Shown: positions 1 through 18,231 of the stretch, piece by piece
How positions within the stretch are numbered: position 1 is the first letter of the stretch
Layout: each line of letters opens with the position of its first letter
Assembly: GCA_001314715.1 (NCBI GenBank)
Contig: LJSV01000001.1
Location: forward strand, 186,001 to 250,000
DNA: 64,000 bases
Origin: Rhodobacteraceae bacterium HLUCCA12
Lineage (GTDB): Bacteria > Pseudomonadota > Alphaproteobacteria > Rhodobacterales > Rhodobacteraceae
Direction of reading: 5' to 3'
Program-made: the position numbers and the translations under genes
The notes under the pieces: generated by a model
Told to the model about the DNA's origin: nothing
What the model saw: only the letters and a program-made list of their open reading frames with translations
Database searches by the model: none

Positions 1-364
1 CCAGGATCACCGCGCTGCCGGGGTCGCACAGGGTCTGGAACACCAGATACAGCGCGGTCTGGGTGCCCGGCAGGCACAAGAATCGATCCTGCCCGATCGC
101 GCGGCCGGTCATCCGCGAATACCGATCCGAAAGCGCGCGCAAGAGCGCGGGTTCGCCCCGGCCGTTGGAATAGCCGGTGCGGCCTGCCGCCATCGCGCGC
201 GCGGCGGCGTCGATCAGGCTGCCGGGGGTGGGCACATCGGGTTCGCCGATGGTCAGGTTGATCACCTCGAGCCCGGCGCGGGCGCGGGCGATGGCGGCAT
301 TGCTGAGCAACCATTTATCCGAACCCAGCCCTGCGAGGCGGGTGGTCACAGCGGCGTATTGCAT
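1..364 (-). CDS. PLP-dependent class I/II aminotransferase (3' part cut off by window edge)
   Basis: Only the first 121 residues are visible; the gene runs off the left end. The start ATG (362-364) follows the stop of the TetR-type gene by 3 bases. Seen: the class I/II N-terminal pattern, including NLTIGEPDVPTP (residues 36-47) and TGYSNGRGEPALLRAL (63-78), the usual substrate-proximal loop and helix of aspartate-aminotransferase-fold enzymes. The PLP lysine lies outside the window. It is the last visible gene of a minus-strand operon with the DDAH-fold hydrolase and the TetR regulator. Converting an amino acid to a 2-oxo acid would fit the neighbouring 2-oxo acid ferredoxin oxidoreductase, but the substrate cannot be read from this fragment. 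Confidence 0.85.
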   Translation of the reverse strand, partial: MQYAAVTTRLAGLGSDKWLLSNAAIARARAGLEVINLTIGEPDVPTPGSLIDAAARAMAAGRTGYSNGRGEPALLRALSDRYSRMTGRAIGQDRFLCLPGTQTALYLVFQTLCDPGSAVIL

Positions 365-367
365 CGA

Positions 368-997
368 TCACTCCGGAAGTTCGAGATCAAGAAGGCGCTC
401 GAACGCCTTGATCGCAATGGATTTCATTTCATTCTTGGCAAAGTGTTCGGGCAGCAGCGACCCTTCGATCCAGAGCCCGTCCAGCAGCGCGTTCCCGGCA
501 ATCGCCAGGGCGCGGGTTCCGCCGGGGGGCGGTTGTCTGCCCGCCGCCTGAAGCGCCTCGGCGATCATCGCCTCCAGCCGGTCGCGAAAGGCCAGATAGG
601 TGCCTTCGTGCACCGCGCGCATGGCCGGGTCGCGCGGCACAAGCTGCATCGATGCGGCCCAAAGCGCCATCGACCGCGGATCGACCACGGGCGGCGTCAC
701 CGCATTGGCGATGAACCCCGACAGCCGCGCCAGCGGGTCGGCGGGCAGTTCGTCCAGCCGCGCCGCGCTGGCCTCGGTCAGCCGGGACATCAGCGATTCG
801 TGGGCGGCGGCGATCAGCTCTTCCTTGGTGGCGAAATAGTGCCGGATCAGCCCTTGCGTCACCCCGGCCCTGAGCGCGATCGCGCGCACGGTCGCGGCCT
901 GCGGTCCACCCTCGGCGATGCAGTCGAGCGTCGCCTGAATCAGCGCCGCGCGCCGCGCCTCCTCGCCCTCGCGGCGATAGGGGCGGCGCGCGTTCAT
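368..997 (-). CDS. TetR/BetI-type transcriptional regulator
   Basis: The protein is 209 aa. The start is set at the ATG at 995-997, which overlaps the upstream hydrolase stop as ATGA; longer in-frame starts would run into that gene. A TetR helix-turn-helix lies at about residues 34-61 (TVRAIALRAGVTQGLIRHYF, followed by a KEEL helix). The rest resembles the ligand-binding domain of BetI-like repressors (RSMALWAASMQLVPRDP, LLDGLWIEG). It is cotranscribed with a DDAH-fold hydrolase and an aminotransferase and sits beside a divergent amino acid ABC transporter, so control of this local operon is the simplest inference. Effector unknown. Confidence 0.9.
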   Translation of the reverse strand: MNARRPYRREGEEARRAALIQATLDCIAEGGPQAATVRAIALRAGVTQGLIRHYFATKEELIAAAHESLMSRLTEASAARLDELPADPLARLSGFIANAVTPPVVDPRSMALWAASMQLVPRDPAMRAVHEGTYLAFRDRLEAMIAEALQAAGRQPPPGGTRALAIAGNALLDGLWIEGSLLPEHFAKNEMKSIAIKAFERLLDLELPE

Positions 998-1863
998 GCC
1001 CGCAGCACCGGGCGGGTCAGGCAGGTGGGGCCACCCTCGCACGCAATGCAGAGCGCATCGCCCGCGAATGTCTGAACGCGGCAACCCGCCTGTTCCATCA
1101 CTGCGCGCGTGCGGGCAAAGCCGTCGACCATCACCACGTCGCGCGGCGCCAGCGCCAGCACATTCAGGCTGAGCCCGTTCGAGGCCATGAATTCATCCTC
1201 GGGGGCATGAAGCAGGTCCCAGCCGCGATCCTTCATTGCCAGCCACAGCGCATAGGGCACCAGCGGCGCATGGATCAGCGCGATGTCGGGGCCCAGGGGC
1301 GAGACCAGCGACATCAGGTGCAGACAGGCCTCGGGCCCGGTCCACCAAGGCAGGTCATAGGCCTGAACCGCGATGCCATAGGGGGCCAGGATCGCGCCAA
1401 GGGCCTCGATCCCGGCCTGGTTGGTGCGCGCGCCCCGTCCCACGGCAAGGGTCTGAGTGTCGAGCCAGAAGCAATCACCCGATTCGACCGTGGCCGCGCC
1501 GGACAGTCGGCCGATCACCGGCACGCCGATCGTTTCATAGAAGGCGGCATGCAGATCGGGCTCGGCCCGGCGCAGGGGTTTGCCCATGTTCAGCACGACC
1601 GCGCCGTGCCGGGTCACGAAGGACGGATCCTGCACGAAGACCGCGTCCGACAGCCCGTCATCGTTGGACGCAAGCCAATGGATCTGCGCGCCGCTGTCGG
1701 CGACGATCCGCGCCAGCGCGGCATGCTGGATCTCGGCGCGGGCAGGGTCGAACCCGGCGCCGTAATGCCAGGTCTTGGGGTCGGCTGCGGCCATGGCCGG
1801 GCCGGGCGCGCGCATGATCACGCGGGCCAGCGGTTTCGAACGGTCTTCGGCGCCATAGGACAT
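994..1863 (-). CDS. Dimethylargininase/arginine deiminase-fold hydrolase (DDAH-like)
   Basis: The protein is 289 aa from the ATG at 1861-1863. An in-frame ATG at 1879-1881 exists, but it overlaps the predicted transcription start, since a perfect TATAAT lies at 1884-1889 on this strand. The guanidine-modifying-enzyme catalytic set is visible: FVQDP (Asp79), ATVESGD (Glu127), ACLHLMS (His182) and the C-terminal GGPTCLTRP (Cys281). Family members hydrolyse methylarginines, arginine or related guanidines through a Cys-thiouronium intermediate; the substrate here is unknown. It overlaps the TetR gene by 4 bases and is divergent from an amino acid ABC importer, suggesting use of an imported guanidino or amino compound as a nitrogen source. 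Confidence 0.85.
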   Translation of the reverse strand: MSYGAEDRSKPLARVIMRAPGPAMAAADPKTWHYGAGFDPARAEIQHAALARIVADSGAQIHWLASNDDGLSDAVFVQDPSFVTRHGAVVLNMGKPLRRAEPDLHAAFYETIGVPVIGRLSGAATVESGDCFWLDTQTLAVGRGARTNQAGIEALGAILAPYGIAVQAYDLPWWTGPEACLHLMSLVSPLGPDIALIHAPLVPYALWLAMKDRGWDLLHAPEDEFMASNGLSLNVLALAPRDVVMVDGFARTRAVMEQAGCRVQTFAGDALCIACEGGPTCLTRPVLRA

Positions 1864-1882
1864 GGGGATTCCGGACTGCATA

Positions 1883-1902: not shown

Positions 1903-2015
1903 GCCAATTCTTTGACCACATACAATGGCAAATCTGTCATGATGCCGGGACCGGCATGCAACACGAGCAAGAGGCGCCGGTCGTGCGCCCGGATGATCAA
2001 CAACAGGAGATGACG

Positions 2016-2783
2016 ATGAAAAGACTTGCCCTTCTGGCCACCACGGCCTTCCTTGCCGCAGCCGGCATGGCGCAGGCCGACGAGGTGCGCATCGGGATCG
2101 CGGCCGAACCCTATCCGCCGTTCTCCTCGCCCGATTCCGAGGGCAACTGGGTCGGCTGGGAGATCGAGATCATCGACGCGATCTGCGACGCCTCCGAGCT
2201 TGACTGCGTGATCACGCCGACCGCCTGGGACGGGATCATCCCGGCGCTGGTTTCCGGCCGGATCGACGCGATCATGAATTCGATGTCGATCACCGAGGAT
2301 CGCCTGCAAACCATCGACTTCTCGGATCCGTATTACAACACGCCCACCGTGATCGTCGGGCAGCGCGACATGGATATCGAGCCGACGCCCGAAGGGATGG
2401 CAGGGCTGGTGCTGGGCGTGCAGGTCTCGACCATCCACCAGACCTATGCCCAGACCTATTTCGAGGACGAAACCCAGATCCGCACCTATCAGACCCAGGA
2501 CGAGGCCAACCAGGACCTGGCAGCGGGACGGATCGACGCGACCCAGGCCGACAGCCTGGCGATGGATGACTTCCTCAACAGCGACGCCGGGCAATGCTGC
2601 GAACTCAAGGGCGCGGTCGAACATGACGAAAGCATCCTGGGCGCAGGCGTCGGTGCGGGCGTGCGCAAGGATGACGACGAGTTGCGCGAAGCCATCAACC
2701 GCGGTCTTGCCACCATCCTGGAAGATGGCACCTATGACGAGATCACCGCGCGTTACTTCGACACGTCGATCTATGGCAACTGA
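2016..2783 (+). CDS. Polar amino acid ABC transporter, periplasmic binding protein
   Basis: The protein is 255 aa. The ATG at 2016 is preferred over the one at 2010 because AGGAG (2005-2009) is well spaced for it and overlaps the earlier one. The N-terminus is a Sec signal peptide (KRLALLATTAFLAAAGMAQA, cleavage near residue 21). The mature protein has the SBP_bac_3 pattern (VRIGIAAEPYPPFS, GWEIEIIDAIC, the two-lobe core with SGRIDAIMNSMSITEDR, ARYFDTSIYG at the end). It should deliver an amino acid or similar small polar solute to the two permeases that follow at once. It is transcribed divergently from the DDAH-like operon. Confidence 0.92.
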   Translation: MKRLALLATTAFLAAAGMAQADEVRIGIAAEPYPPFSSPDSEGNWVGWEIEIIDAICDASELDCVITPTAWDGIIPALVSGRIDAIMNSMSITEDRLQTIDFSDPYYNTPTVIVGQRDMDIEPTPEGMAGLVLGVQVSTIHQTYAQTYFEDETQIRTYQTQDEANQDLAAGRIDATQADSLAMDDFLNSDAGQCCELKGAVEHDESILGAGVGAGVRKDDDELREAINRGLATILEDGTYDEITARYFDTSIYGN

Positions 2784-2797: not shown

Positions 2798-3541
2798 GTG
2801 TTCGACTGGTTGTTTGCCCTCTGGCCGGGGCTTGAGGCTTCGGTCAACCTTCTGTCCCTCCAGCCGCCGGGCTGGGGGGGCAACCTTTTGCGCGGGGCCT
2901 GGGCCAGCCTTCAGATCGCCGCCGGGGCGTTCGGCATGGGGCTGGTGATCGGCACCTTCGGCGCGCTGGGAAAGCTGCATGGCGGGCCGGTGATGCGCGA
3001 TCTGCTGGCGGTCTATACGACCGTCGTGCGCGCGGTGCCGGAGCTGATCCTGATCCTGATTCTGTATTACGCGGGCACCGACCTGCTGAACCAGGCGCTG
3101 CGCGCGATGGGCCAGCGCCCGGTCGAGATCTCGGGCGTGGCGGCGGGGATCGCGGTTCTGGGCGTGGTGCAGGGCGCCTATGCGACCGAGGTGTTGCGCG
3201 GCGCCATCCAGTCGGTGCCGCGCGGCCAGACCGAGGCCGCGCGCGCCTTCGGCATGGGCGCGGTGCTGACCTTTCGCCGCGTGGTCTTTCCGGCGATGCT
3301 GCCGCTGGCGCTGCCGGGGCTGTCGAACCTGTGGCTGATCGCCACCAAGGATACCGCGCTTCTGGCCATCGTCGGGTTTTCCGAACTCACGCTGGAAACC
3401 CGGCAGGCGGCCGGCGCCACGCGCGCCTATTTCACCTTCTTCCTGGCGGCGGGGGCCCTGTATCTTGTGGTGACGCTGCTGTCGGGCCGGATCTTCGGCT
3501 GGATCGAAGCCCGCTACCGGCGCGGCGAGGCCGCGCGATGA
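2798..3541 (+). CDS. Amino acid ABC transporter permease (HisQ/GlnP-like)
   Basis: The protein is 247 aa with a GTG start at 2798, 14 bases after the binding-protein stop. It has several hydrophobic segments, and the region RGAIQSVPRGQTEAARAFGM matches the EAA loop that docks the ATPase. The RAVPELILILILYY segment is typical of His/Glu/Asp family permeases. It overlaps the next permease by 4 bases (ATGA), so the two are probably made together as a heterodimer in the inner membrane. No ATP-binding subunit gene follows, which is unusual for this family. Confidence 0.92.
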   Translation: MFDWLFALWPGLEASVNLLSLQPPGWGGNLLRGAWASLQIAAGAFGMGLVIGTFGALGKLHGGPVMRDLLAVYTTVVRAVPELILILILYYAGTDLLNQALRAMGQRPVEISGVAAGIAVLGVVQGAYATEVLRGAIQSVPRGQTEAARAFGMGAVLTFRRVVFPAMLPLALPGLSNLWLIATKDTALLAIVGFSELTLETRQAAGATRAYFTFFLAAGALYLVVTLLSGRIFGWIEARYRRGEAAR

Positions 3542-4335
3542 CGACCCGGTTGAACCGCATCGCCGAGGAAATCCTGGTGCCGCACCGGCTGGCCATGATC
3601 GCGGTCGCGCTGGCGATCGCGGTCTGGGCGGCGCTGTCGATGCGCTGGCACTGGATCCCGCGCTATGGCGAACTGGCGCTTTTGGGGTTGTGGCGGACCT
3701 TCTGGCTGCTGGGGCTGAGCTGCGCGATCGGGTTTGTCATGGCGATCGGACTGGGGCTGGCGCAGGCGTCGGGTCCGCGCGTCCTGGCGGTGCCCGCGCG
3801 GGCCTTTTGCACGACCATTCGCGGCACGCCGCTGTTGCTGCAACTTTGGCTGATCTATTTCGGGCTCGGCAGCCTGTTTCCGCAGTTTCCATGGATTCGC
3901 GAAAGCGAGCTTTGGCCCTATCTGCGCGAAGCCTGGCCCTATGCGCTGCTGTCGCTGAGCCTGAGCTTTGCCGGCTACGAGGGCGAGGTGATGCGCGGGG
4001 CGTTCCGCTCGGTGCCCGCCGGGCAGCTGGAGGCCGCGCGGTCGATGGGCATGGGCCGGTTCGCGATCCTGCGCCGGATCTGGTTGCCACAGGCATTGCA
4101 GCGCGCCCTGCCCACGCTGGGCGGCGAGACGGTCCTGCAACTCAAGGCGACCCCGCTGGTCGCCACGATCACGGTGATCGACATCTATGCGGTGGCCAGC
4201 CGGGTGCGGCAGGACCTGTTCATCATCTACGAGCCGTTGTTGCTGCTGGCGGTGATCTACATGGTGATCGCCGGGGTGATCGCGCTGGTTTTCCGGCTGC
4301 TGGAACGGCGTTATAGCCGAGGGGTGGTGGTCTGA
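3538..4335 (+). CDS. Amino acid ABC transporter permease (HisM/GlnP-like)
   Basis: The protein is 265 aa. The ATG overlaps the stop of the preceding permease. It is the second half of the permease pair, with hydrophobic helices, the TTIRGTPLLLQLWLIYFGLG segment and the EAA loop (RGAFRSVPAGQLEAARSMGM) characteristic of polar amino acid importers. It ends the visible transporter operon. The matching ATPase is not encoded between here and the left window edge, so it lies elsewhere or is shared. Confidence 0.92.
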   Translation: MTTRLNRIAEEILVPHRLAMIAVALAIAVWAALSMRWHWIPRYGELALLGLWRTFWLLGLSCAIGFVMAIGLGLAQASGPRVLAVPARAFCTTIRGTPLLLQLWLIYFGLGSLFPQFPWIRESELWPYLREAWPYALLSLSLSFAGYEGEVMRGAFRSVPAGQLEAARSMGMGRFAILRRIWLPQALQRALPTLGGETVLQLKATPLVATITVIDIYAVASRVRQDLFIIYEPLLLLAVIYMVIAGVIALVFRLLERRYSRGVVV

Positions 4336-4487: not shown

Positions 4488-4691
4488 ATGACCATTGCAA
4501 ACATTTCCGAGATCACTGCCACGTCGAATGCGAGTTTCGAGGACGCCGTTGCCTCGGGCCTTGAGCGTGCCAGCAAGACGCTGCGCAACATCCGGACAGC
4601 CTGGGTCAAGGATCAGGAGGTCGTGGTCGAAAACGGCAAGATCGCGTCTTACAAGGTGACGATGAAGGTGACCTTCGTCCTTGATGACTGA
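4488..4691 (+). CDS. Dodecin family flavin-binding protein
   Basis: The protein is 67 aa, the full dodecin length, with a strong AAGGAGG at 4476-4482. The family pattern is clear: an N-terminal strand with KxxEIxATS-like ISEITATSNASFEDAV, then GLERASKTLRNIRTAWVKDQ including the tryptophan that stacks on bound flavin, and a C-terminal strand pair (VTMKVTFVLDD). Dodecins form hollow 12-mers that store riboflavin or FMN and limit photochemical damage. Here it lies between an ABC importer and genes for two FAD oxidoreductases and indolepyruvate oxidoreductase, so local flavin buffering is plausible but inferred. Confidence 0.93.
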   Translation: MTIANISEITATSNASFEDAVASGLERASKTLRNIRTAWVKDQEVVVENGKIASYKVTMKVTFVLDD

Positions 4692-4822: not shown

Positions 4823-6382
4823 TCAGAGGAACGAACGGATCGTCTGGATCGCGCCGTCCAGCGCCTTGCCCTCTTCGTCTTGGAGCGCGGCCTCGCGCAG
4901 GCGTCGCGTCCAGTCGGCCGCGTCCTCGCGCCCGGCCAGAAGGGCGGCGGCCGCCATCGCGCGGTCGAACTTGGACAGGCCGCGGGCATGGGTGTCGGAA
5001 TAGCCCTTCACCAGCCGGCGCAGGCGCAGGATCTCGACGCCATGGGCGTAATCGGTGCGCGCCTGGTCGAGCGCGGTATCGAGCCAGCGTTCGAGATGCG
5101 CCATCTCGACGGCGTGGCGCAACGAGCGCAGCCGCCAGCCCTTGAGCCCGCCGAGGATGTAGAGCTGGAGAAAATGGCGCAGACTGTCGGTGCGCAGGCG
5201 CCGGCCCTTGTTCACGCGGCGGTCGATCCAGCCCATCAGGCGTGGCCGGGCCTCGACCCAGCGGCCGAGGCGCGCGGGCATCAGCGAGACCACCTCTTGC
5301 GCGCGCGGATGGGTGAATTCGGTCAGGTGCAAGATGCGGCTGTCGTCCACCCCCATCTCGGAGCGGATGCGCGACAGGCGCGCGGCGCGGGTCTTGCGGT
5401 CGGCGACGCGGATCATGTCGTCATAGGCCATCGCGTTGGCGATGTATTTCGCGCCCTCGCGGGTGAGTTCATGGCCCCTGTCGGGGCTGTCGAGCGCCGC
5501 CACCCGGCCGAGCCGGTCGAGATAGGCCCGGCCATAGGCGATGTCCTGGAAATCGACGACCTTGCGCAACCCGGCCAGCGCCATCTCGCGCGCGCCTTCG
5601 GGCAGGGCGTCGATGCGTGCTTCGAGTTCGGCGAAGTCACGAGCCAGCCGCGACGGACCCTGCGGCACGACGGCAGAGGGGGCAGGCGCCGGCGTAGCTT
5701 CTTCGGCCGTACCGGCCGGGGGAGGCGCCTTGGCCGCGTCATGGGCGCGCGCGAAGGCCCTGAGCGAGGCCTCGACCCCGCGGCCCGAGGCGCGGATCGC
5801 CTCTTCGAAGGTGTCGCGCGGGAACGGCAGCGCGCCCGAGCCCGCCAGCGCCCCGAAGAGCGAGGCCGAGATCACCGAACCCGCGCCGACCGCCATGGCC
5901 TCCATGTCGAACATGATCAGCTGTTGCGCCGCGACCTCGGCGGCGCGCGCGACCTCGTCGGCATTGGCGATCCCGTCGCCGGGCACCATCTTTTCGCTGA
6001 CCGCCAGCGCGCGATGGGTCGAGGCGATGAGTGTCGTGCGATCGGGCGTGACGAAGCCGCGCATGATGGCGCGCCCGGCCTCCATCATCTCGGCGGCGAT
6101 CAGGATGTCGACATCGCCCGCCGCCGGCGCCAGCGAGAAGACGGGCGTGCCGCCGTCCATCGGCGCCATTTCGATGTAATAGATCGTGGCCCCGGTGCGC
6201 TGCGCGACGCCCGCGACCGACGTGGCCTGCGCGGCATAGCCGTTGGCGCGGGCGACCGCCTCGATCCAGCCCGACAGCACGCCGCCGCCCTGGCCGCCGA
6301 CGGCCATGACCGCCAGCTTGATGATCGTCTCCATGCGCGCATCGCGTTTGCGCGGCGCAAGACCCTGGACATGCTGGTTCAT
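4823..6382 (-). CDS. iorB: Indolepyruvate ferredoxin oxidoreductase, beta subunit with DUF6537-type C-terminus
   Basis: The protein is 519 aa. The start at 6382 overlaps the iorA stop as ATGA; in-frame extension upstream only reads through iorA. The N-terminal pyruvate-ferredoxin-oxidoreductase gamma/III domain (about 20-215) has the glycine-rich VGGQGGGVLSGWI. An A/P-rich linker (about 258-290) leads to a 230-residue helical C-terminal half of the DUF6537 kind, found in the long IorB proteins of aerobic proteobacteria. With IorA it should decarboxylate aryl-2-oxo acids (indolepyruvate, phenylpyruvate) to the acyl-CoA, passing electrons to ferredoxin or another carrier. The downstream neighbour is the repeat and dodecin. 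Confidence 0.9.
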   Translation of the reverse strand: MNQHVQGLAPRKRDARMETIIKLAVMAVGGQGGGVLSGWIEAVARANGYAAQATSVAGVAQRTGATIYYIEMAPMDGGTPVFSLAPAAGDVDILIAAEMMEAGRAIMRGFVTPDRTTLIASTHRALAVSEKMVPGDGIANADEVARAAEVAAQQLIMFDMEAMAVGAGSVISASLFGALAGSGALPFPRDTFEEAIRASGRGVEASLRAFARAHDAAKAPPPAGTAEEATPAPAPSAVVPQGPSRLARDFAELEARIDALPEGAREMALAGLRKVVDFQDIAYGRAYLDRLGRVAALDSPDRGHELTREGAKYIANAMAYDDMIRVADRKTRAARLSRIRSEMGVDDSRILHLTEFTHPRAQEVVSLMPARLGRWVEARPRLMGWIDRRVNKGRRLRTDSLRHFLQLYILGGLKGWRLRSLRHAVEMAHLERWLDTALDQARTDYAHGVEILRLRRLVKGYSDTHARGLSKFDRAMAAAALLAGREDAADWTRRLREAALQDEEGKALDGAIQTIRSFL

Positions 6383-8541
6383 TCTGCCGCTACCCCCTGC
6401 ATTGCGTCGAACGACAGCCGCTTGCGGTCGCGGCGGGACTGGAGCCAGCGGATGACCGATTGCCGCCAGCGGTTGAGCCGGTGTTCCCAGCCGGTGGGGT
6501 TGTGGACCACGCGCGCCTCGTAGAACGAGGGGCACAGCACCGCCGCATCGGCGACCTCGCCGCAGTTGCCGCAGCCGACGCAGGTCTGGTCGATCGAGGC
6601 GATCGGATCGTCGCGCAGCGGATCGTCGAGCGTCTTGAGGCTGAGCGAGGGGCAGCCCGAGAGGCGGATGCAGGCGTGATCGCCGGTGCAGATGTCCTCA
6701 TCGACGCCAAAGCGCGGCTTCTCGACGCGCTGCCCCTCCTTGATGGCCTGCGCGACCTGGGGCTTTTCGCGGCGCTGGCGGTTGAGCATGCATTCCGACG
6801 AGGCCACGATCACCTTGGGCCCCTTGAAATCGGTGGTCAGGGCCTCATGAAACGTGTCGCGCATCTTCTTTACGTCATAGGTGCGATCGATCTGGCGCAC
6901 CCATTCCACGCCCACGCCCCTGAGCGCCTTTTCGATGGGGTTGCCCGTGGCCTTGGTCGGGTTCTGGGCGCGCGAGGACAGGATGTCCTGCCCGCCGGTG
7001 GCCGCCGAATAGTAGTTGTCGACGATGACCACGACCCCGTCGGACTTGTTGAACACCATGTTGCCGATCGAGCTGGACAGCCCGTTGTGCCAGAACCCGC
7101 CGTCGCCGATGACCGAGATCGGCCGGCGTTCGCCGCCGCCGTCGAACGCGCCGTTCGAGGCCGGCCCAAGGCCATAGCCCATGGTCGCGCCGCCGATGTT
7201 GAACGGGGGCAGCGAGGCAAAGAGGTGGCAGCCGATATCGGCCGAAATCTGGTGCTCGCCCAGTTCCTCCTGCACCAGCTTCATGGCCGCGAAGATGGGC
7301 CGTTCGGGGCAGCCGGTGCAGAATCCGGGTGGCCGGATCGGCACGGTCTTGGACAGGTCGGGAATGGCCGGCGCCGGGGCGTTGGGCGCGCGCACCTGCG
7401 GCGGCAGGTATTGCGGCGCGGCCTTGCGCAAAAAGCCCTCGATCCCGTCGAGCATGATCTGGCCGGTATATTCGCCGGCCATCGGAAAGACATCCTTGCC
7501 GTGCAGCTTGACGCGGGACCCGGCGCGATACATCAGGCTGCCCAGTTGCTGTTCGATGAACTCGGGCTGGCCTTCCTCGACCACGAGAACGGCCTCCTTG
7601 CCCTCGCAGAAGGCGTCGAATTCCTCGGTGACGATGGGATAGGTCACGTTCAGGCAGTAAAGCGGCACCTCGGTCTGGCCGTGGATGTCGGCCAGGCCCA
7701 GCCGTTGCAGCGCGCGGATCACGCCATTGTACATGCCGCCCTGGCAGACGATGCCGACGGGTGCCTGTTCTGGCCCGAAAATCTCGTTCAACCCGTGCTT
7801 GCGGATGTAGTCCTGCGCGGCGGGCCAGCGGTTATTGACCTTGTCTTGTTCCTGCGCATAGCTCATCGGCGGCAGCACGATGCGCGAGACATCGCGGCGC
7901 GGGTTCGACAGCGCGTCGCGCACATTCAGCGGCGGGCGCTTGTTGTCGCGGGTGTCGAATTGCCCGGTGACATGGCACGAGCGGATGCGCACCATCAGCA
8001 TGACCGGCGTGTTCGAGGCCTCGGACAGTTCGAACCCCTGTTCCACGGCCTTGACGATCGAGGGAAGGTTGGGGCGCGGGTCCAGAAGCCAGAACTGCGA
8101 TTTCATCGCAAAGGCGTGGCTGCGTTCTTGCATGATCGACGAGCCTTCGCCGTAATCCTCGCCCACGATCACCAGCGCGCCCCCGGTCACGCCCGAAGAC
8201 GCGAGGTTGGCCAGCGCGTCCGAGGCCACGTTGACCCCGACCGAGCCCTTGAACGTCACCGCGCCGCGGATCGGATAGTGCACGCTGGCGGCCAGCATTG
8301 CCGCCGCCGCCGCCTCGGAGGCGTTGGCCTCGAAGCGCACGCCCAGCTCGCCCAGGATTTCCTCGGCGTCGGCCAGAACGTCCATCAGGTGGCTGATCGG
8401 GGCACCCTGATAGCCGCCGACATAGCCCACGCCGCATTCCAGAAGCGCCTTGGTGATCGCCAGGATGCCTTCGCCGGTGAAGGTCTGGCCATCGCCAAGC
8501 TTCAAGTGTTCCACTTCCTTCTTGAAGGATCTTTCGGCCAT
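6379..8541 (-). CDS. iorA: Indolepyruvate ferredoxin oxidoreductase, alpha subunit
   Basis: The protein is 720 aa, full length for IorA. The order seen is: an N-terminal 2-oxoacid oxidoreductase domain (EGILAITKALLECGV; QGAPISHL near residue 47), the conserved GFCTGCPERP near 405, a thiamine diphosphate motif GDGGFWHNG near 477 followed by VVIVDNYYSA, and a C-terminal Fe-S region with CTGDHACIRLSGCP (about 619) and CVGCGNC (about 654). The first cluster lacks one cysteine of the standard ferredoxin pattern, as I recall for aerobic-type relatives. It forms an operon with marR upstream (15-base gap) and iorB downstream. The likely substrates are aromatic 2-oxo acids made by a transaminase. Confidence 0.93.
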   Translation of the reverse strand: MAERSFKKEVEHLKLGDGQTFTGEGILAITKALLECGVGYVGGYQGAPISHLMDVLADAEEILGELGVRFEANASEAAAAAMLAASVHYPIRGAVTFKGSVGVNVASDALANLASSGVTGGALVIVGEDYGEGSSIMQERSHAFAMKSQFWLLDPRPNLPSIVKAVEQGFELSEASNTPVMLMVRIRSCHVTGQFDTRDNKRPPLNVRDALSNPRRDVSRIVLPPMSYAQEQDKVNNRWPAAQDYIRKHGLNEIFGPEQAPVGIVCQGGMYNGVIRALQRLGLADIHGQTEVPLYCLNVTYPIVTEEFDAFCEGKEAVLVVEEGQPEFIEQQLGSLMYRAGSRVKLHGKDVFPMAGEYTGQIMLDGIEGFLRKAAPQYLPPQVRAPNAPAPAIPDLSKTVPIRPPGFCTGCPERPIFAAMKLVQEELGEHQISADIGCHLFASLPPFNIGGATMGYGLGPASNGAFDGGGERRPISVIGDGGFWHNGLSSSIGNMVFNKSDGVVVIVDNYYSAATGGQDILSSRAQNPTKATGNPIEKALRGVGVEWVRQIDRTYDVKKMRDTFHEALTTDFKGPKVIVASSECMLNRQRREKPQVAQAIKEGQRVEKPRFGVDEDICTGDHACIRLSGCPSLSLKTLDDPLRDDPIASIDQTCVGCGNCGEVADAAVLCPSFYEARVVHNPTGWEHRLNRWRQSVIRWLQSRRDRKRLSFDAMQGVAAE

Positions 8542-11491: not shown

Positions 11492-11529
11492 TATATGCAA
11501 GTAATTTTTTCAACAGGGAGACGCGAAGA

Positions 11530-13101
11530 ATGACACAAGTCGTCGATGCGGTGTTCGTGGGCGCGGGGCACAACAGCCTCGCCTGTGCGATTCATCTGGC
11601 GGCAAAGGGCTGGTCCGTATCGGTGGTCGAACAGGCCGAAGAGGCCGGCGGCGCGGTGCGCGCGGGTGAATATACGCAGCCGGGATTCCGGCATGACTGG
11701 GCCGCGATGAACCTGTCGCTTTTCGCCGGTTCCGCGTTTTTCAAGCAATATGGCAAATCACTGACCGGGCGCGGGCTGGAGTTCGTGCCGGTGGACAAGC
11801 CCTTTGCCAGCGCCTTTCCTGATGGCCGCTGGCTGGGTGTCAGCAGCGACGCCGCTGTCACGTCCGACCGCATTCGCGCCTTTTCCGACGCGGATGCCGA
11901 GACCTGGGGACGGCTGCTGGCCGATTTTCCCGCGCAGGCCGAGCAGATTTTCGCACTCCTCGGCAATCCCATGCGTAATCATGCATTGGCCGGTTTCCTT
12001 TTTCGTCTGTGGCGCAAGCGCGGCATCGGTGGCGCCCTGGATCTGGGCCGGTTTCTGGTGCAGTCGCCGCGCGCCTGGCTGGACCAGACCTTCGAATCGC
12101 CGCACCTGAAGGCGATGCTGGGGGCATGGGGAATGCATCTGGATTTTGCCCCCGACGTGGCCGGCGGCGCGCTGTTTCCGTATCTTGAGGCGATGGCGGG
12201 CCAATCCTTCGGCATGGTGATCGGCAAGGGCGGGGCCGACACGATCATCCGCGCCATGCAGGCCGAACTGACCGCACGCGGCGGGACGGTGACATGCAAC
12301 GCGCCGGTTTCGCGCATCCTGCATGACGGCGGCAAGGCGCAGGGGGTGGAACTGGCCGATGGCCGGCAGATCATGGCGCGCAAGGCGGTCATCGCCAATG
12401 TCGCCCCTTCGGCGCTGGTGCGGCTGACCGGCGGCACCGGCGATTGCGGGTTCGACCGCGCGATGAACACGTTCGAACACGCGCCGGGCACGATGATGAT
12501 CCATCTCGCGCTTGACGGATTGCCCGACTGGGCGGCGGGCGATGCGCTGAAGACCTTTGCCTATGTGCATCTGGCCCCGTCGCTGGACCAGATGGCGCGC
12601 ACTTATCAGCAGGCCCGCGCCGGGCTTTTGCCCGATGAGCCCGTGGTGGTGGTGGGCCAGCCCACCGTTTTCGACCCGTCGCGCGCCCCCGAGGGCAAGC
12701 ATGTGCTGTGGATGCAGGTCCGCATGGTGCCCGGCACCATCCGCGGCGATGCCGCGGGCACGATCGCGGCGACCGACTGGGGTGAAGCGGCACAGCCCAT
12801 GGCTGACCGCGCGCTGGATATTCTGGACCGCTATGCCCCCGGCACGCGGGCCAGGATTCTTGGGCAGCGCATCGTCGCCCCCACGGACCTTGAGGCCCAG
12901 AACCCCAATCTTGTCGGTGGCGACCAGGTCTGCGGCAGTCATCATCTGGCGCAGCATTTCCTGTTTCGCCCCGCGCGCGGGCATGCCGATGGCCGCACGC
13001 CGATCGACCGGCTGCACCTGAGCGGCGCCGCCGTCTGGCCGGGCGGCGGCACGGGGGCGGGGCCGGGCTATCTGCTGGCGCGCAAGCTGGCGGGCAACTG
13101 A
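11530..13101 (+). CDS. NAD(P)/FAD-dependent oxidoreductase, phytoene-dehydrogenase (CrtI) fold, paralog B
   Basis: The protein is 523 aa; the start ATG at 11530 has AGGGAG at 11515-11520. The FAD-binding motif AVFVGAGHNSLACAIHLAAKG is near residue 7, followed by VSVVEQAEEAGGAVR, and a C-terminal GAAVWPGGGTGAGPGYLLA contacts FAD. It is homologous over its whole length to the gene at 9039, with the same length and shared motifs (PGFRHD, GQPTVFDPSRAPEGK, PNLVGGD), but the two have diverged a lot, so the catalytic steps probably differ. It heads the plus-strand operon that continues with the dipeptide-type ABC importer 31 bases downstream, suggesting oxidation of the imported compound. Confidence 0.88.
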   Translation: MTQVVDAVFVGAGHNSLACAIHLAAKGWSVSVVEQAEEAGGAVRAGEYTQPGFRHDWAAMNLSLFAGSAFFKQYGKSLTGRGLEFVPVDKPFASAFPDGRWLGVSSDAAVTSDRIRAFSDADAETWGRLLADFPAQAEQIFALLGNPMRNHALAGFLFRLWRKRGIGGALDLGRFLVQSPRAWLDQTFESPHLKAMLGAWGMHLDFAPDVAGGALFPYLEAMAGQSFGMVIGKGGADTIIRAMQAELTARGGTVTCNAPVSRILHDGGKAQGVELADGRQIMARKAVIANVAPSALVRLTGGTGDCGFDRAMNTFEHAPGTMMIHLALDGLPDWAAGDALKTFAYVHLAPSLDQMARTYQQARAGLLPDEPVVVVGQPTVFDPSRAPEGKHVLWMQVRMVPGTIRGDAAGTIAATDWGEAAQPMADRALDILDRYAPGTRARILGQRIVAPTDLEAQNPNLVGGDQVCGSHHLAQHFLFRPARGHADGRTPIDRLHLSGAAVWPGGGTGAGPGYLLARKLAGN

Positions 13102-13132: not shown

Positions 13133-14656
13133 ATGAAACTGTCACGCAGAAGCCTTTTGCAGATGTCCGCGGCCTCGGTCGCGCTGACTTTTGTCAAGCC
13201 GGTGCTGGCCCAGTCCATCGACGAGCTGGTGATCGCCTATAACGTCAACCTGCCCAGCTGGGATCCCACGGTGGGCCCCTCGGCGGTGAACCCGACCATT
13301 CAGGGGCTCTATCAGTCGGTGTTCGACCAGTTCATCCTGCAAAAACCCGACCTGTCGCCCGCGCCGGGCCTGCTGACCGACTGGGGCTGGAACGAGGATC
13401 GCACGCAGGTCTGGATGGATGTCCGCGAAGGCGTGAAATGGCATGACGGATCGGACTTCACGGCCGAGGACGTGCGCTGGTCGCTGGAACGCGCCGCGCG
13501 CGAGGAAACCGGCAATCCCATCCAGTTCGTCTGGGGCACCCTGACCAACCACCGGGTCGAGGGCAACCGCGTGATCGCCGATGTCGCGCAGTTCGATCCG
13601 ACGATCTTCAAGTGGATGTATTTCCTGACCGGCTATGTCCTGCCAAAGGATTACTATGAGCGCGTCGGCGCCGACGGGTTCGAAGAGGCGCCGATCGGCA
13701 CCGGCCCCTACATGGTCGAACAATACGAGCGCAACGCCTTTGTCCAGCTCAAGGCGAACCCCGATTACTGGAACGGCGTCCCCGAGTTCGAGACCGTCAC
13801 CATCCGTTTCGTGACCGATGCAACCAGCCGCGTGGCCGAGGTCGAATCGGGCGGCAGCCATGTCACGCTGGAAGTGCCCTACGAAGAGTACGACCGCCTG
13901 CGTGCGCGCGACGGTCTGTCGGGCACGCATGCGCCGGTGTCGGATATCGCGATGATCTTCTTCAACGACATCGATGTGATGCTGGACGACAACGTGCGCA
14001 AGGCCGCCGTCCACGCCATCGACAAGCAATTGATCATCGACCGCCTGCTGGAAGGCTACGGCGTGCCGATCCACACCATGCAGACGCCCGAATATCTGGC
14101 CTATGATCCGTCGATCGAGGTCGAATATGACCCCGATCTCGCGCGCGAGCTGCTGGCCGAGTCGGGCTATTCGACCGACGAGCCGGTGCGGTTCACCATC
14201 CAGACCACGCGCGGCTTCAAGCCCAAGGACTATGAGATGATCCAGGCCATCGTCGGCATGTGGCGCCGGGTCGGGATCGAGGCCGAGATCGAGGTCTACG
14301 AAGTGGCGCGCCATTTCGAGCTGCGCGCGGCTGACGACCTGGCGCCGGCGGCGTTCTACAACTGGGGCAACTCGGTCGGCGATCCGACGACCTCGACCGG
14401 CTTCGCAATGTTCGGTCCATCGCCGCATTCGGTCTGGGACAGCGAAGACCTGGTCGAGAAGATCGCGCCGCTGTGGGCCGAGTCCGACGAGGAAGCCCGC
14501 ATCGAGGGCTGGAAAGAGGTGGATCGCTATATCGCCGAGAATGCCTATGTGCTGCCGCTTTTCCAGTATGTGCAGCCCATCGTTCATGCCTCGGGCGTGA
14601 AGGTGACGCCCCATGCCTCGGGCGCGCTGTTGCCGCATCTGATGACCCGCGCCTGA
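13133..14656 (+). CDS. Dipeptide/oligopeptide-type ABC transporter, periplasmic binding protein
   Basis: The protein is 507 aa. The N-terminus has a twin-arginine-like start, RRSLLQMSAASVALTF, ending in VLAQS, so export by Tat or Sec with cleavage near residue 27 is expected. The mature part is SBP_bac_5 family: LVIAYNVNLPSWDPT, GVKWHDGSDFTAEDVRWSLER, and FEEAPIGTGPYMVEQYERN. Such proteins bind peptides, opines, nickel chelates and various small organics, so the substrate is open. The permease and ATPase genes follow in order. Its position after a catabolic oxidoreductase suggests a non-peptide substrate. Confidence 0.92.
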   Translation: MKLSRRSLLQMSAASVALTFVKPVLAQSIDELVIAYNVNLPSWDPTVGPSAVNPTIQGLYQSVFDQFILQKPDLSPAPGLLTDWGWNEDRTQVWMDVREGVKWHDGSDFTAEDVRWSLERAAREETGNPIQFVWGTLTNHRVEGNRVIADVAQFDPTIFKWMYFLTGYVLPKDYYERVGADGFEEAPIGTGPYMVEQYERNAFVQLKANPDYWNGVPEFETVTIRFVTDATSRVAEVESGGSHVTLEVPYEEYDRLRARDGLSGTHAPVSDIAMIFFNDIDVMLDDNVRKAAVHAIDKQLIIDRLLEGYGVPIHTMQTPEYLAYDPSIEVEYDPDLARELLAESGYSTDEPVRFTIQTTRGFKPKDYEMIQAIVGMWRRVGIEAEIEVYEVARHFELRAADDLAPAAFYNWGNSVGDPTTSTGFAMFGPSPHSVWDSEDLVEKIAPLWAESDEEARIEGWKEVDRYIAENAYVLPLFQYVQPIVHASGVKVTPHASGALLPHLMTRA

Positions 14657-14705: not shown

Positions 14706-15713
14706 ATGATCCTGCGACGAGTTCTTTTGCGCCTTCTGACCACGTTGGTGACACTTCTGGGTGTCTCGGTGATCGTGTTCGTGACCATCCGCGTGGTGCC
14801 CGGCGACCCCATCGCCATGATGCTGCCCCCCGGCGCAACCGATGACGATATCGACCGTCTGCGCAGGATCTACGGGTTGGACCGTTCGATTGCCGAGCAG
14901 TATTTCATCTGGCTGTCAGGGGTGGTGCAGGGCGATTTCGGCACCTCGATCCAGACCCGGCAGCCGGTGCTGAACCTTGTGCTGCGCCGCCTGCCCGCGA
15001 CCCTGGAACTGTCGATCATGGCGTTGGTGATCGCTATGGTCATCGGCGGATTTCTGGCCCTGACCGGCACCCGGCTGCGCGGCACCCGGACCGAGGGCGC
15101 GATCGACGTCACCAACGGCATGGCCCTGTCGGTGCCCGATTTTCTGTGGGGGCTGGTGCTGATCCTGCTGTTTGGCGTCTTGTGGCCGGTCTTTCACATC
15201 TCGGGCCGGATTTCGCCGAACCTGACATCCGAGTTCAGCACCTCGTTCTACCTGTTCGAAAGCGTGTTCCGGCTGCGCTTCGACCTGTGGCTGGATCTGG
15301 TCAGCCACATGTTCATGCCCGCATTGGCGCTGGCGATTCCGCTGGCGGCGATCATCGGCCAGTTGCTGAAACAAAGTCTCAAGGAAACCATGCATCTGGA
15401 TTACGTCACGCTGTCGCGCACCAAGGGCTATGGCGAGAACCATGTCATCATCCGCGAGGCGTTGCCGAACGCGGTGCTGCCCACGCTGACGCTGATCGGG
15501 GTGCAGTTCACCTTTCTGATCGGCGGCACCGTCATCATCGAACGGCTTTTTTCCTACGAGGGGCTGGGCAACATGGCCATCGACGCGGTGATCAACCGCG
15601 ACCTGCCCCTGATCCAGGGCATCGTGATCCTGTTCGCGTTGCTGTTCACCGTGGTGAACCTGCTGGTCGACATGCTCTATGCCGTGCTGAACCCGAGGCT
15701 TCGCCATGCTTGA
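14706..15713 (+). CDS. ABC transporter permease, DppB type
   Basis: The protein is 335 aa with the N-terminal TM segment and periplasmic loop typical of DppB/OppB (VVPGDPIAMMLPPGATDDDI, LRRIYGLDRSIAEQY). The C-terminal binding-protein-dependent transport domain carries the EAA loop in the region DYVTLSRTKGYGENHVIIRE and the GGTVIIERLFSYEGLG signature. It overlaps the next permease gene by 8 bases. It forms the inner-membrane channel together with the DppC-type partner. Confidence 0.93.
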   Translation: MILRRVLLRLLTTLVTLLGVSVIVFVTIRVVPGDPIAMMLPPGATDDDIDRLRRIYGLDRSIAEQYFIWLSGVVQGDFGTSIQTRQPVLNLVLRRLPATLELSIMALVIAMVIGGFLALTGTRLRGTRTEGAIDVTNGMALSVPDFLWGLVLILLFGVLWPVFHISGRISPNLTSEFSTSFYLFESVFRLRFDLWLDLVSHMFMPALALAIPLAAIIGQLLKQSLKETMHLDYVTLSRTKGYGENHVIIREALPNAVLPTLTLIGVQFTFLIGGTVIIERLFSYEGLGNMAIDAVINRDLPLIQGIVILFALLFTVVNLLVDMLYAVLNPRLRHA

Positions 15714-16557
15714 TGCACGCGGAATGATCAAGCGCCGCCTGGGTCTGCGGCTGTGGCTGTCGGGCGGCTGGTTGCTGCTGCTGGCCCTGGCGGCGATTCT
15801 GGCGCCATGGATCGCGCCGCACGATCCGTTGATGCAGGATCTGTTCACCAGCCGGCTGCCACCGTTCTGGATGGACGGGGCCGAGCCCGGCTACTGGCTG
15901 GGCACCGACAGCTTGGGGCGGGACGTGCTGAGCCGAATCATGCACGGCGCGCGCGTGGCGCTGATCGTGGCACTGATCGCGGGCACCGCCACGGCCCTGA
16001 TCGGGGCCACGCTGGGGCTGATCGCGGGCTATTTTCGCGGCTGGGCCGATCTGGTCATCTCGCGCATGGTCGATATCTGGATGGCGTTTCCGCCGGTTCT
16101 GTTCGCGATCCTGCTGATCGCGGTGATGGGCACCGGCCTGACCTCGGTCGTGGTGGCGATCATCGTCATCGACTGGACGCGGTTTGCGCGTGTCGTGCGC
16201 GCCGAGGCCATGAGCCAGGGCGCGATGGACTATGTCGCCTCGGCGCAGGTGGCCGGGCAACGGCGGCTGGGCACCATGCTGACCGAGATCCTGCCCAATG
16301 TCCTGCCCACGATCGTGGCATTGCTGACACTTGAAATGGGGATCGCCGTGATCGTCGAGGCAATTCTGGGTTTCGTGAACCTGTCGGTCTCGACCGATTC
16401 GCCGACCTGGGGCGGCATGATCGCCGAAGGGCGCGCATCGGTCCATCGCGCCTGGTGGGTGCTGGTCTTTCCGCTGATCACCTTGTTTCTGACCGTCCTG
16501 TCCTTCAGCCAGTTGGGCGAGGGGCTCAAGGACCGCTTCGATCCGGTGCTGCGATGA
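15706..16557 (+). CDS. ABC transporter permease, DppC type
   Basis: The protein is 283 aa. The N-terminal TM helix (LLLLALAAILAPWIAPHDPL) is followed by WLGTDSLGRDVLSRIMHGAR, the hallmark of DppC/OppC permeases. The EAA loop region is MDYVASAQVAGQRRLGTMLT. It overlaps the genes on both sides (8 bases and ATGA), showing tight translational coupling within the importer operon. Confidence 0.93.
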   Translation: MLDARGMIKRRLGLRLWLSGGWLLLLALAAILAPWIAPHDPLMQDLFTSRLPPFWMDGAEPGYWLGTDSLGRDVLSRIMHGARVALIVALIAGTATALIGATLGLIAGYFRGWADLVISRMVDIWMAFPPVLFAILLIAVMGTGLTSVVVAIIVIDWTRFARVVRAEAMSQGAMDYVASAQVAGQRRLGTMLTEILPNVLPTIVALLTLEMGIAVIVEAILGFVNLSVSTDSPTWGGMIAEGRASVHRAWWVLVFPLITLFLTVLSFSQLGEGLKDRFDPVLR

Positions 16558-17426
16558 GCGCGTTCTTGTCCATTCGGAACCTGTCGGTTGCGCTGAAAGG
16601 CGGGCCACGGCTGCTGCGCGCGGTCTCGCTGGATGTCGCGGTTGGCGAGGTCCGCGGGCTGGTGGGCGAATCCGGCGCCGGCAAGTCGATGATCGGCAAG
16701 GCGGTGCTGGGTATCCTGCCCCACTCGGTCGAGGTGGTCGCCGGTGAGATCTGGCTCGATGGCGTGGACCTCCTGCGCCTGAAACCCGCCGAACGCCGCC
16801 GCAAGGTCGGCGCCACGGCCGCGCTGATCCCGCAAGACCCGCTGACGGCGTTGAATCCGTCGCGCCGAATTGGACGCCAGATCACGGATCGGCTGGTGGA
16901 CATACTGGGATGGACCCGCGCCGATGCCGAGTCGCGCGCGCTGGAACTGCTGGGCGAGGTCCATATCCCGGACCCAGCGCGCGTGATGCACAGCTATCCG
17001 CATGAATTGTCCGGGGGCATGCGCCAGCGGGTTCTCATCGCCTCCGCCTTTGCCGCCGAGCCACGGCTGATCGTAGCTGATGAGCCCACGACCGCGCTGG
17101 ATGTGACGGTGCAAAAACAGATCCTGCGCCTGATCGCGCAGATGCAGGCCCGCCATGGAACGGCGCTCTTGTTCGTCACGCATGACCTGGGGGTGGTGTC
17201 CAAGGTCTGTTCCAGCCTGTCGGTTCTCTATGGCGGGCTGGTGCTGGAACAGACCGGCGTACGCGATTTCTTCCGCGCGCCGCAGCATCCCTATTCGCGC
17301 GCGCTTCTGGCGGCGACGCCGCAATACACCGACCCCATGGCCGGGCTGAACCCGGTGCCCGAATCGGTGATCGCCGCCGTGACCGAGGAGGTCGCACAAG
17401 CCGACAGGGGGTGGCGCCATGGCTGA
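16554..17426 (+). CDS. ABC transporter ATP-binding protein, DppD type
   Basis: The protein is 290 aa. Walker A GESGAGKS is at residues 38-45, the signature is LSGGMRQRV, and Walker B is LIVADEPTTALDVTVQ. It is shorter than usual DppD (about 330 aa); the C-terminal oligopeptide/dipeptide extension is reduced to about 40 residues ending in DRGWRHG. The ATG overlaps the DppC stop. It pairs with the next ATPase to power the importer. Confidence 0.93.
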   Translation: MSAFLSIRNLSVALKGGPRLLRAVSLDVAVGEVRGLVGESGAGKSMIGKAVLGILPHSVEVVAGEIWLDGVDLLRLKPAERRRKVGATAALIPQDPLTALNPSRRIGRQITDRLVDILGWTRADAESRALELLGEVHIPDPARVMHSYPHELSGGMRQRVLIASAFAAEPRLIVADEPTTALDVTVQKQILRLIAQMQARHGTALLFVTHDLGVVSKVCSSLSVLYGGLVLEQTGVRDFFRAPQHPYSRALLAATPQYTDPMAGLNPVPESVIAAVTEEVAQADRGWRHG

Positions 17427-18231
17427 CCTGTATACCGTCACCGATCTGCACCTGTCGCTGCCCGATATGGTGCACAAGCCGTTGCTTGGATCGGCCCCGC
17501 GCATCGACATTTTGCACGGGCTGAATTTCACCATCGCCTCGGGCGAGGTGCTGGGGATCGTCGGCGGTTCGGGCTCGGGAAAATCGACGCTGGGTCGCGT
17601 GCTGGTCCGCCTGCTGGAGCCCACGCGCGGGCAGGTGCTGTTCGACGGGCAGGACATCACCCATCTGGACGAGGCCGCGCTGCGCCCGCTGCGCCGGCGC
17701 TTTCAGATGATCTTTCAGGATCCGATGTCCTCGCTCAATCCGCGCCGCACCGTGGCCGCGATCATCGCCGCGCCGCTGAAACTGCAAGGGTTCGATGACA
17801 CGTCGCGGCGTGTCGATCGGGCGCTGGATCATGTCGGCCTGCCGCGCGCCTTTCGCGGCCGTTACCCGCATGAGCTGTCGGGCGGGCAGCGCCAGCGCGT
17901 GGGCATCGCCCGCGCGATTGCCATGGAGCCCGAGTTCATCCTGGCCGATGAAATCGTCTCGGGGCTGGATGTGTCGAGCCAGGCACAGGTGCTGAAACTG
18001 CTGGACGACCTGGTGCGCGAGTTGGGCCTGACGCTGGCCTTCATCAGCCACGATCTGAGCGTGATCCGCCGGCTGTGCTCGCAGGTCATGGTGCTGCATC
18101 AGGGCCGTATCGTCGAACACCGCCCGACGCAGGCGCTGTTCGACGCACCGCAGGCCGCATACACGCGCGAACTGCTCGATTCGATCCCGTTGCCGGACCC
18201 CGATCAGCCCTGGGCAATGCTGGAAACCTGA
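17419..18231 (+). CDS. ABC transporter ATP-binding protein, DppF type
   Basis: The protein is 270 aa. It has Walker A GGSGSGKSTLG, Q-loop FQMIFQDPMSSLNPRR, signature LSGGQRQRVGIARAIA and Walker B FILADEIVSGLDVSSQ. It is short for DppF, ending soon after the YTRELLDSIP motif. It overlaps the DppD-type gene by 8 bases and closes the operon that began with the FAD oxidoreductase at 11530. Confidence 0.93.
   Translation: MADLYTVTDLHLSLPDMVHKPLLGSAPRIDILHGLNFTIASGEVLGIVGGSGSGKSTLGRVLVRLLEPTRGQVLFDGQDITHLDEAALRPLRRRFQMIFQDPMSSLNPRRTVAAIIAAPLKLQGFDDTSRRVDRALDHVGLPRAFRGRYPHELSGGQRQRVGIARAIAMEPEFILADEIVSGLDVSSQAQVLKLLDDLVRELGLTLAFISHDLSVIRRLCSQVMVLHQGRIVEHRPTQALFDAPQAAYTRELLDSIPLPDPDQPWAMLET

Follow-up and report, generated by a model that had tools for sequence, protein, structure and literature searches.

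The closest described relatives of the locus analysed here are the iad loci of Variovorax and Bradyrhizobium, which, according to the available portions of the papers describing them, contain the oxidoreductase IorAB (IadAB), a MarR regulator and a protein, IadI, annotated as kynurenine formamidase (PMC9613470, PMC12633357; all papers are cited here for their available portions). IorA and IorB have been named exclusive markers of iad-like operons (PMC9613470), and isatin and isatinic acid are reported intermediates of the route (PMC9613470, PMC12633357). We analysed a 64,000-nucleotide stretch of DNA from the alphaproteobacterium Rhodobacteraceae bacterium HLUCCA12 (contig LJSV01000001.1, positions 186,001 to 250,000, forward strand; hereafter the window), in whose first 18,231 positions iorA, iorB and marR accompany an isatin hydrolase gene (ihb), two genes for CrtI-fold flavoproteins (fad1 and fad2) and the genes of a Dpp (peptide-type) importer. 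On balance, we favour the reading that the genes of this right-hand unit form a pair of operons for isatin degradation, which would make 2-aminobenzoyl-CoA by means of isatin hydrolase B (IHB) and IorAB, with the flavoproteins and the importer as its entry.

The route would begin with uptake of an oxindole-type compound by the Dpp-type importer, and FAD1 and FAD2, both CrtO-ketolase-like, would bring this compound to the level of isatin. IHB would hydrolyse isatin to isatinate (2-aminophenylglyoxylate), which IorAB, using CoA, would convert to 2-aminobenzoyl-CoA by oxidative decarboxylation; 2-aminobenzoyl-CoA would then pass to a monooxygenase/reductase whose gene lies on contig 8 of the HLUCCA12 genome, while MarR would keep the ihb promoter repressed until it binds an indolic acid. 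At the level of sequence, the support consists of the identity of the hydrolase, the linkage and co-occurrence of the genes, a shared promoter element and the presence of a gene of the next-enzyme family. From there we infer the substrate and product of IorAB, the roles of FAD1 and FAD2, and the site and inducer of MarR.

The window hydrolase is, by sequence, an orthologue of isatin hydrolase B, a closer relationship than the isatin-hydrolase-like enzyme of the preliminary description of this DNA. Its best match in the Protein Data Bank (PDB) is isatin hydrolase B of Labrenzia (Roseibium) aggregata (4j0n; E 3e-157, 525 bits), against 269-292 bits for A-type isatin hydrolases and 23 bits for kynurenine formamidases. 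The motif HxGTHxDxPxH occupies residues 73-83, and the metal-motif form HxG[T/A]HxDxPxH is found in 80 of 80 relatives. IHB is 84% identical to the product of the Roseibium aggregatum IAM 12614 gene (locus L018; L numbers denote loci examined and G numbers sampled genomes, G000 being the HLUCCA12 genome itself), and that locus holds the whole right-hand unit with the same gene order around the hydrolase. We take this strain to be the source of 4j0n. Mn-dependent isatin hydrolysis is reported for the Labrenzia enzymes, in a paper whose available portion treats the enzyme and not its gene context (PMC6117287). Among 401 isatin hydrolase relatives, the nearest named ones by hydrolase are Pararhodobacter metagenome-assembled genomes (MAGs), at 89-92%. 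In L053 and L077, isatin hydrolases of both kinds, one A-like and one B-like, share a single locus of about 20 kb that also has thiolase-like and SDR-like genes.

Mapping the window proteins onto the loci of the best 80 of these 401 relatives, some of which stop at contig ends, we observed marR within 10 kb of the hydrolase in 75 loci, iorA in 73, iorB in 71, fad2 in 53 and dppA in 50; fad1 lies directly downstream of ihb in 56. The 60 loci with at least 9 kb on both sides gave 59 for marR, 57 each for iorA and iorB, 41 for fad1 and 40 each for fad2 and dppA. Linkage of the hydrolase region with iorAB, which the preliminary description had proposed to look for, is therefore conserved, and it supports the suggestion made there that an indolic compound is taken up and broken down around isatin hydrolase and IorAB. 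In the close relative L005, gene order is preserved through dppF to a downstream SDR gene and dnaB; its contig ends just after iorB, and the left-module region lies outside that comparison. The same cluster, at Rhodobacterales-like identity, occurs in a record named Nocardioides marinus (L019) and in a Blastopirellula MAG (L062), possibly through contamination or mislabelling.

IorB passes the cut-off of PRK08312, an indolepyruvate oxidoreductase beta-like subfamily (NF006179; 671.7 vs 348 bits), while IorA, with a thiamine pyrophosphate (TPP) motif at residue 479 and a CxxCGxC Fe-S motif at residue 654, falls below the TIGR03336 equivalog cut-off for indolepyruvate:ferredoxin oxidoreductase (IOR; 292.4 vs 650.9 bits). 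The product of isatin hydrolase, isatinate, is an aryl-2-oxo acid and so belongs to the substrate class of the IOR/POR superfamily; IorAB therefore most likely oxidises isatinate to 2-aminobenzoyl-CoA. In its favour, strains overexpressing the iad genes iadC-K2, which as named include neither iadA nor iadB, accumulate a compound C8H7NO3 (PMC12633357), the formula of isatinic acid (PMC8383072); this may be isatinate that goes unused because IadAB is lacking. A chemical parallel would be phenylglyoxylate:acceptor oxidoreductase, a multi-subunit anaerobic enzyme that converts an aryl-glyoxylate and CoA to aroyl-CoA, the parallel being drawn from general chemistry. No statement of IorAB acting on isatinate occurs in the available portions of PMC6221969, PMC9613470, PMC8383072 and PMC12633357, and a search that left the subscription literature mostly outside returned no published description of a step from isatin to a CoA-activated aromatic acid.

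We then considered co-occurrence in a sample of 120 family genomes, each from a different genus and at least 90% complete, with thresholds of E 1e-60 for isatin hydrolase, at least 70% identity for split IorA, E 1e-150 for the next-enzyme family and E 1e-40 for the pyridoxal phosphate (PLP) enzyme discussed below. Isatin hydrolase, A- or B-like, is present in 18 genomes, 16 of them with a B-like copy (72-100% identity, HLUCCA12 included) and two (G027, G085) with only 47-51% copies. Split IorA occurs in exactly the same 18 genomes and in none elsewhere (Fisher p=9e-22); two further genomes (G008, G109) have 55% IorA copies in other surroundings, and counting both gives p=2e-19. In a sample of 387 genomes from the class, all 13 with isatin hydrolase have an IorA match: the six whose hydrolase is at least 50% identical all have it within 10 kb, and in the remaining seven (45-48%) the IorA match, at 54-56%, is on a different contig. 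In a tree of IorA, 38 of 42 sampled isatin-hydrolase-linked rows fall in one supported group (100/96). IorA is a wider family, one supported branch of which holds most of the sampled isatin-hydrolase-linked rows. Two loci (L120 and L121, of G208 and G437) have an IorA 73-74% identical to that of the window beside TRAP transporter genes; no isatin hydrolase was found in these genomes at E 1e-60, and their IorA is a related oxidoreductase whose substrate is perhaps a different one.

The preliminary description had treated the whole 18 kb as one system, with transamination feeding IorAB. Profile searches of positions 1-18231 found every gene type it named, about where it had placed them, and these fall into two adjoining sets, left (1-4335) and right (4823-18231). 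Beyond the 5' edge of the window the aminotransferase is completed and abuts a TPP enzyme that passes the cut-off for 5-guanidino-2-oxopentanoate decarboxylase of the AruI type (NF005712; 615 vs 500 bits), past which lie genes reading as clpX and clpP. The DDAH-fold protein has the candidate Cys and His, scores below the dimethylargininase NCBIfam equivalog cut-off (75.3 vs 340 bits) and has a relative at E 1e-40 in just 2 of the 120 family genomes, HLUCCA12 included; the importer of the left set is most similar to lysine/arginine/histidine systems. The left module (window 1-4335 and L085:11621-14364) is probably a guanidino or basic amino acid (arginine-type) module, and the DDAH-fold protein, dodecin and this first importer look like bystanders to the right-hand unit. 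The DDAH-like gene, the TPP decarboxylase, TetR and dodecin were each found in 0 of the 80 isatin hydrolase loci. For this reason we rejected a single 18-kb pathway, and a transaminase feeding IorAB was set aside together with it; the locus's own 2-oxo acid should be isatinate. Aminotransferases of the same broad family lie near some of the 80 loci, and for this reason the aminotransferase was not used as a marker.

These findings bear on an explanation in which IorAB acts on indole-3-pyruvate or phenylpyruvate derived by transamination, with isatin hydrolase acting further along the same tryptophan pathway. The family name of the enzyme, the aminotransferase gene in the same 18 kb and the IorA homologues found without isatin hydrolase in other families all agree with it, and the other aminotransferases near some loci leave it some probability. 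We nevertheless judge it improbable, since the aminotransferase sits with the AruI-type decarboxylase, which shares its absence from the 80 loci with TetR and the DDAH-like gene, since IorA misses the IOR cut-off, and since its orthologue tracks isatin hydrolase in 18 of 18 genomes of the family. Furthermore, the HLUCCA12 genome encodes a single split IorA, and two more IorA-like matches lie in frames of 1144 and 1150 residues, presumably the length of fused IORs of the arylpyruvate type, so that arylpyruvates have other candidate enzymes.

For the step after IorAB in our favoured reading, we turned to the PRK08255 family, which we take to include 2-aminobenzoyl-CoA monooxygenase/reductase. 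A gene of this family is present in 40 of the 120 genomes, namely 16 of the 18 with isatin hydrolase against 24 of the 102 others (p=2e-7); leaving out G050, whose match is at 48%, the figures are 15 of 18 and p=2e-6. The homologue at L010, with fused FAD/FMN domains, passes the PRK08255 cut-off (NF006101; 1213 vs 1078 bits), and the contig-8 protein of HLUCCA12 is 68% identical to it over residues 1-757, its gene being accompanied by SDR-, RidA- and thioesterase-like genes (L095). Such a gene and the hydrolase are at most about 20 kb apart in 4 of the 18 genomes (G071, G029, G095, G110), and the gene is found at 60% identity or more in 4 of the 80 loci (L010, L033, L051, L077); at L122, from another family, CoA ligase-, thiolase-, isatin hydrolase-, IorA-, IorB-, RidA-, thioesterase- and monooxygenase-like genes stand in one row. 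In the described 2-aminobenzoyl-CoA pathway, by which anthranilate is degraded aerobically (reviewed in PMC6221969) and whose monooxygenase/reductase family would supply the proposed next step and is encoded in the HLUCCA12 genome, 2-aminobenzoyl-CoA is formed from anthranilate by a ligase, whereas here it would come directly from isatinate.

Within the right-hand unit, ihb, fad1, marR, iorA and iorB follow one another on the minus strand with ends that overlap or nearly abut (the iorB start ATG at 6382 falls inside the iorA stop), in keeping with the overlapping operons described previously, and fad2-dppABCDF diverges from them across a common gap of about 130 bp. For both flavoproteins the best NCBIfam model is CrtO ketolase (168 bits for FAD1 and 185 bits for FAD2, cut-off 1000). 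Their AlphaFold models (mean pLDDT 85.2 and 88.5) match best the gamma-carotene desaturase 4rep (TMq 0.77 and 0.75), followed by phytoene desaturase and then by amine and nicotine oxidases; the comparison establishes the CrtI/amine-oxidase fold only and indicates no substrate. CrtO turns CH2 into C=O, and we suggest, by analogy only, that a CrtO-like change on oxindole would give isatin. FAD1 and FAD2, with the Dpp importer, might instead serve an unrelated substrate, sharing only the divergent promoter with an isatin module of IHB, MarR and IorAB. Since fad2 was not seen in 27 of the 80 loci, or in 20 of the 60 with long flanks, the core does exist alone; we still think this arrangement quite unlikely, as ihb and marR flank fad1 in one tightly packed operon, FAD1 was not found without IHB in the 120 genomes and every IHB genome among them has FAD1 or the PLP enzyme.

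The PLP enzyme in question is kynureninase-like (Aminotran_5; match to kynureninase 1qz9, E 1e-12). A second IHB of the HLUCCA12 genome, on contig 12, lies in frame with such a domain (L093:9804-11825, minus strand; 673 residues, stop-free), and the same in-frame, stop-free arrangement is found in five loci in all (L072, L080, L093, L096, L110); in L072, L096 and L110 a Met lies near the start of the hydrolase part, and in L080 the PLP part ends at the contig end. FAD1 is present in 12 of the 16 B-type genomes and in 0 of the 104 others, with a FAD2-like second match nearby in all 12, and the PLP enzyme is present in 11 of the 120 genomes. All 16 B-type genomes have one or the other (6 both, 6 FAD1 only, 4 PLP only), so that the two resemble alternative entry steps. 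The PLP enzyme could also mean that IHB is a formamidase or amidase of a kynurenine-type route that gives anthranilate or 2-aminobenzoyl units from oxidised tryptophan, with IorAB acting on another 2-oxo acid. The in-frame pairing would fit this, as would the distribution of the PLP enzyme (10 of the 16 IHB genomes against 1 of the 104 others) and the cluster of L043, which has a neighbouring gene scoring above the kynureninase cut-off. We give the idea little credence, because 6 of the 16 IHB genomes have FAD1 and no PLP enzyme at E 1e-40, because IHB resembles isatin hydrolase far more than kynurenine formamidase in bit score, and because the fusion lies on contig 12, outside the window.

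The DNA roughly 60-150 nt upstream of ihb holds a promoter-like element, TTGCA-N3-RCA ... TGTCTAGCAT. Among the 53 long-form gaps, the window's own being one of them, 26 contain its strict form, as do 8 of the 27 upstream stretches of short-form loci, against 0.01 and 0.00 expected after shuffling; the relaxed form is found in 49 of 53 and 8 of 27, and the half-site in 50 of 53 and 22 of 27. The strict and relaxed patterns were both composed after viewing these same sequences. Over the roughly 3.0 million strand-bases of the 80 loci the relaxed motif has 59 matches, all within 200 nt upstream of ihb and spread over 57 loci, and it occurs once in the 64-kb window, at 11500 on the minus strand. 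Further loci gave one relaxed match (L106, 9821 minus), with no mapped gene within 400 nt downstream. The half-site also precedes marR(-iorAB) in two iad-type loci (L097, L099) and iorA in L110; in the HLUCCA12 genome we found none before the PLP-IHB fusion or the contig-8 PRK08255-type gene. The window MarR, which would bind at the predicted ihb operator, matches 3cjn (E 8e-57) and 7kym (E 9e-25), the latter presumably Bradyrhizobium IadR, by elimination only. In an ungapped hand alignment it keeps the Arg equivalent to MarR_73 Arg46, and the equivalents of Ser28 and His32 are Asn and Arg. Its best PDB matches are 3cjn and the structures of the auxin-regulator paper with which 7kym was deposited (PMC9613470).

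The unit resembles the iad loci of Variovorax and Bradyrhizobium in its iorA/iorB marker genes and MarR, and differs in its B-type hydrolase, its two CrtO-like flavoproteins and its Dpp importer. We found no Ring_hydroxyl_A (PF00848) match for the Rieske oxygenase IadDE in the HLUCCA12 genome, whereas the same search was positive in 4 of 14 control genomes, and no acyl-CoA synthetase (IadF) or thiolase (IadG) among the genes of 1-18231, candidates for both reading as neighbours of isatin hydrolase A (IHA) on contig 13. As there is neither IadDE nor any Ring_hydroxyl_A match in the genome, we do not class the unit as an iad locus; it shares the lower half of one. Two family genomes, G024 and G027, have an IorA 81% identical and an IorB 60-62% identical to those of the window, with MarR (L097-L100), and no more than about 15 kb separates this IorA from genes for a CoA ligase, a thiolase and IHA and from a Rieske motif of the CPH-CPYH type, which is iad gene content. 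A broad Rieske pattern gave many implausible matches, and only the CPH...CPYH type was counted: it occurs in L097, L099, L103, L112 and L114 (iad-type content), in L102 (IHA and CoA-ligase-like genes only) and in L123. The A-like copy on contig 13 is the third isatin hydrolase of the HLUCCA12 genome (L094:2335-16173); its neighbours read as CoA-ligase-, thiolase-, TRAP-transporter- and luciferase-like (flavin) monooxygenase genes, an iad-like set without the Rieske oxygenase. The earlier statement that no pathway with these enzymes is described was too strong, given IorAB, MarR and IadI in iad loci. A set that adds a Dpp importer and two CrtO-like flavoproteins to these we did not meet in the literature, no paper search having been aimed at it.

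Several observations weigh against the favoured reading. In Variovorax, iadC-K2, whose named genes include neither iadA nor iadB, restores anthranilate, so that IadAB is dispensable there (PMC12633357). IorA as a family is not specific to isatin, since 50 of the 63 IorA-bearing genomes among the 387 of the class have no isatin hydrolase at E 1e-60; the IorA of L010, L077, L122 and L123 falls outside the main isatin-hydrolase-linked group of the tree, and the close relative L007 has ihb-fad1-marR with no iorA detected. The next-enzyme family is missing from 2 of the 18 genomes (G013, G099) and matched at only 48% in G050, occurs in 24 genomes without isatin hydrolase, and bears the NCBIfam name salicylyl-CoA 5-hydroxylase. 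The relaxed promoter motif precedes ihb in only 8 of the 27 short-form loci. FAD1 and FAD2 score below every NCBIfam cut-off, and the role we assign them is guesswork; moreover, the long-form loci L081 and L082 carry a plausible CPH-CPFH Rieske motif in their flanks, and an oxygenase may therefore belong to some versions of the unit.

The features of the locus are listed in the table below. Longest-ORF calling gave shadow open reading frames (ORFs) in this GC-rich DNA and served only to choose neighbours for annotation; an Rfam scan of 1-20000 found nothing beyond the tRNA.

Table. Features of the left module, the right-hand unit and their borders (window coordinates)
Feature	Position	Strand	Description
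Aminotransferase	2..364	-	Runs past window edge; complete in L085
BetI-like TetR	368..997	-	
DDAH-fold hydrolase	994..1881	-	ADI/DDAH fold
Substrate-binding protein	2016..2783	+	Family 3
Two permeases	2798..3541, 3538..4335	+	
Dodecin	4488..4691	+	Apparent bystander
iorB	4823..6382	-	PRK08312-type beta subunit, POR domain + DUF6537
iorA	6379..8541	-	TPP-dependent 2-oxoacid oxidoreductase alpha subunit; proposed isatinate:acceptor oxidoreductase
marR	8557..9042	-	IadR-like MarR regulator
fad1	9039..10604	-	CrtI-fold flavoprotein; nearest NCBIfam model CrtO ketolase
ihb	10609..11400	-	Isatin hydrolase B orthologue
Conserved promoter/operator (putative)	11472..11500	-	TTGCAT, 17 nt, CAGCAT + TTGCAN3RCA half-site element
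fad2	11530..13101	+	Second CrtI-fold flavoprotein
dppA-like substrate-binding protein	13133..14656	+	Family 5
dppB-like permease	14706..15713	+	
dppC-like permease	15706..16557	+	
dppD-like ATPase	16554..17426	+	
dppF-like ATPase	17419..18231	+	Right end of unit
tRNA-Gly	at 18292		3' of dppF

Beyond the window, we tentatively propose, as a bolder scenario that is rather unlikely as a whole, a widespread undescribed alphaproteobacterial branch of aerobic indole-ring breakdown, in which IorAB, as an isatinate:acceptor oxidoreductase, would lead to 2-aminobenzoyl-CoA without free anthranilate and isatin would come from interchangeable entry modules. These modules would be the iad Rieske route from auxin, the PLP-IHB fusion, which would cleave dioxindolylalanine, an oxidised form of tryptophan, to give isatin plus alanine, and FAD1/FAD2 behind the Dpp importer, the two CrtO-like flavoenzymes turning the oxindole CH2 into the C3 carbonyl. 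The idea about dioxindolylalanine draws on the existence of the PLP-IHB fusions, on the retro-aldol side activity of kynureninase and on dioxindolylalanine being a known oxidation product of tryptophan. The last point is described in PMC8228365.

The favoured reading gives IorAB, an iad marker to which the available portions of PMC9613470 and PMC12633357 assign no reaction, a candidate reaction, and it fits isatin hydrolase B, whose crystal structure is known, into a route that is almost complete. Many carriers of the B-type hydrolase among the 401 relatives are marine by their record names. If the reading is true, a sizeable minority of the family (a B-type hydrolase is present in 16 of 120 genera) would break down indole oxidation products of the isatin type, which would affect how auxin and tryptophan are turned over around algae; and if the wider scenario were true as well, indole breakdown would join a CoA route without free anthranilate.

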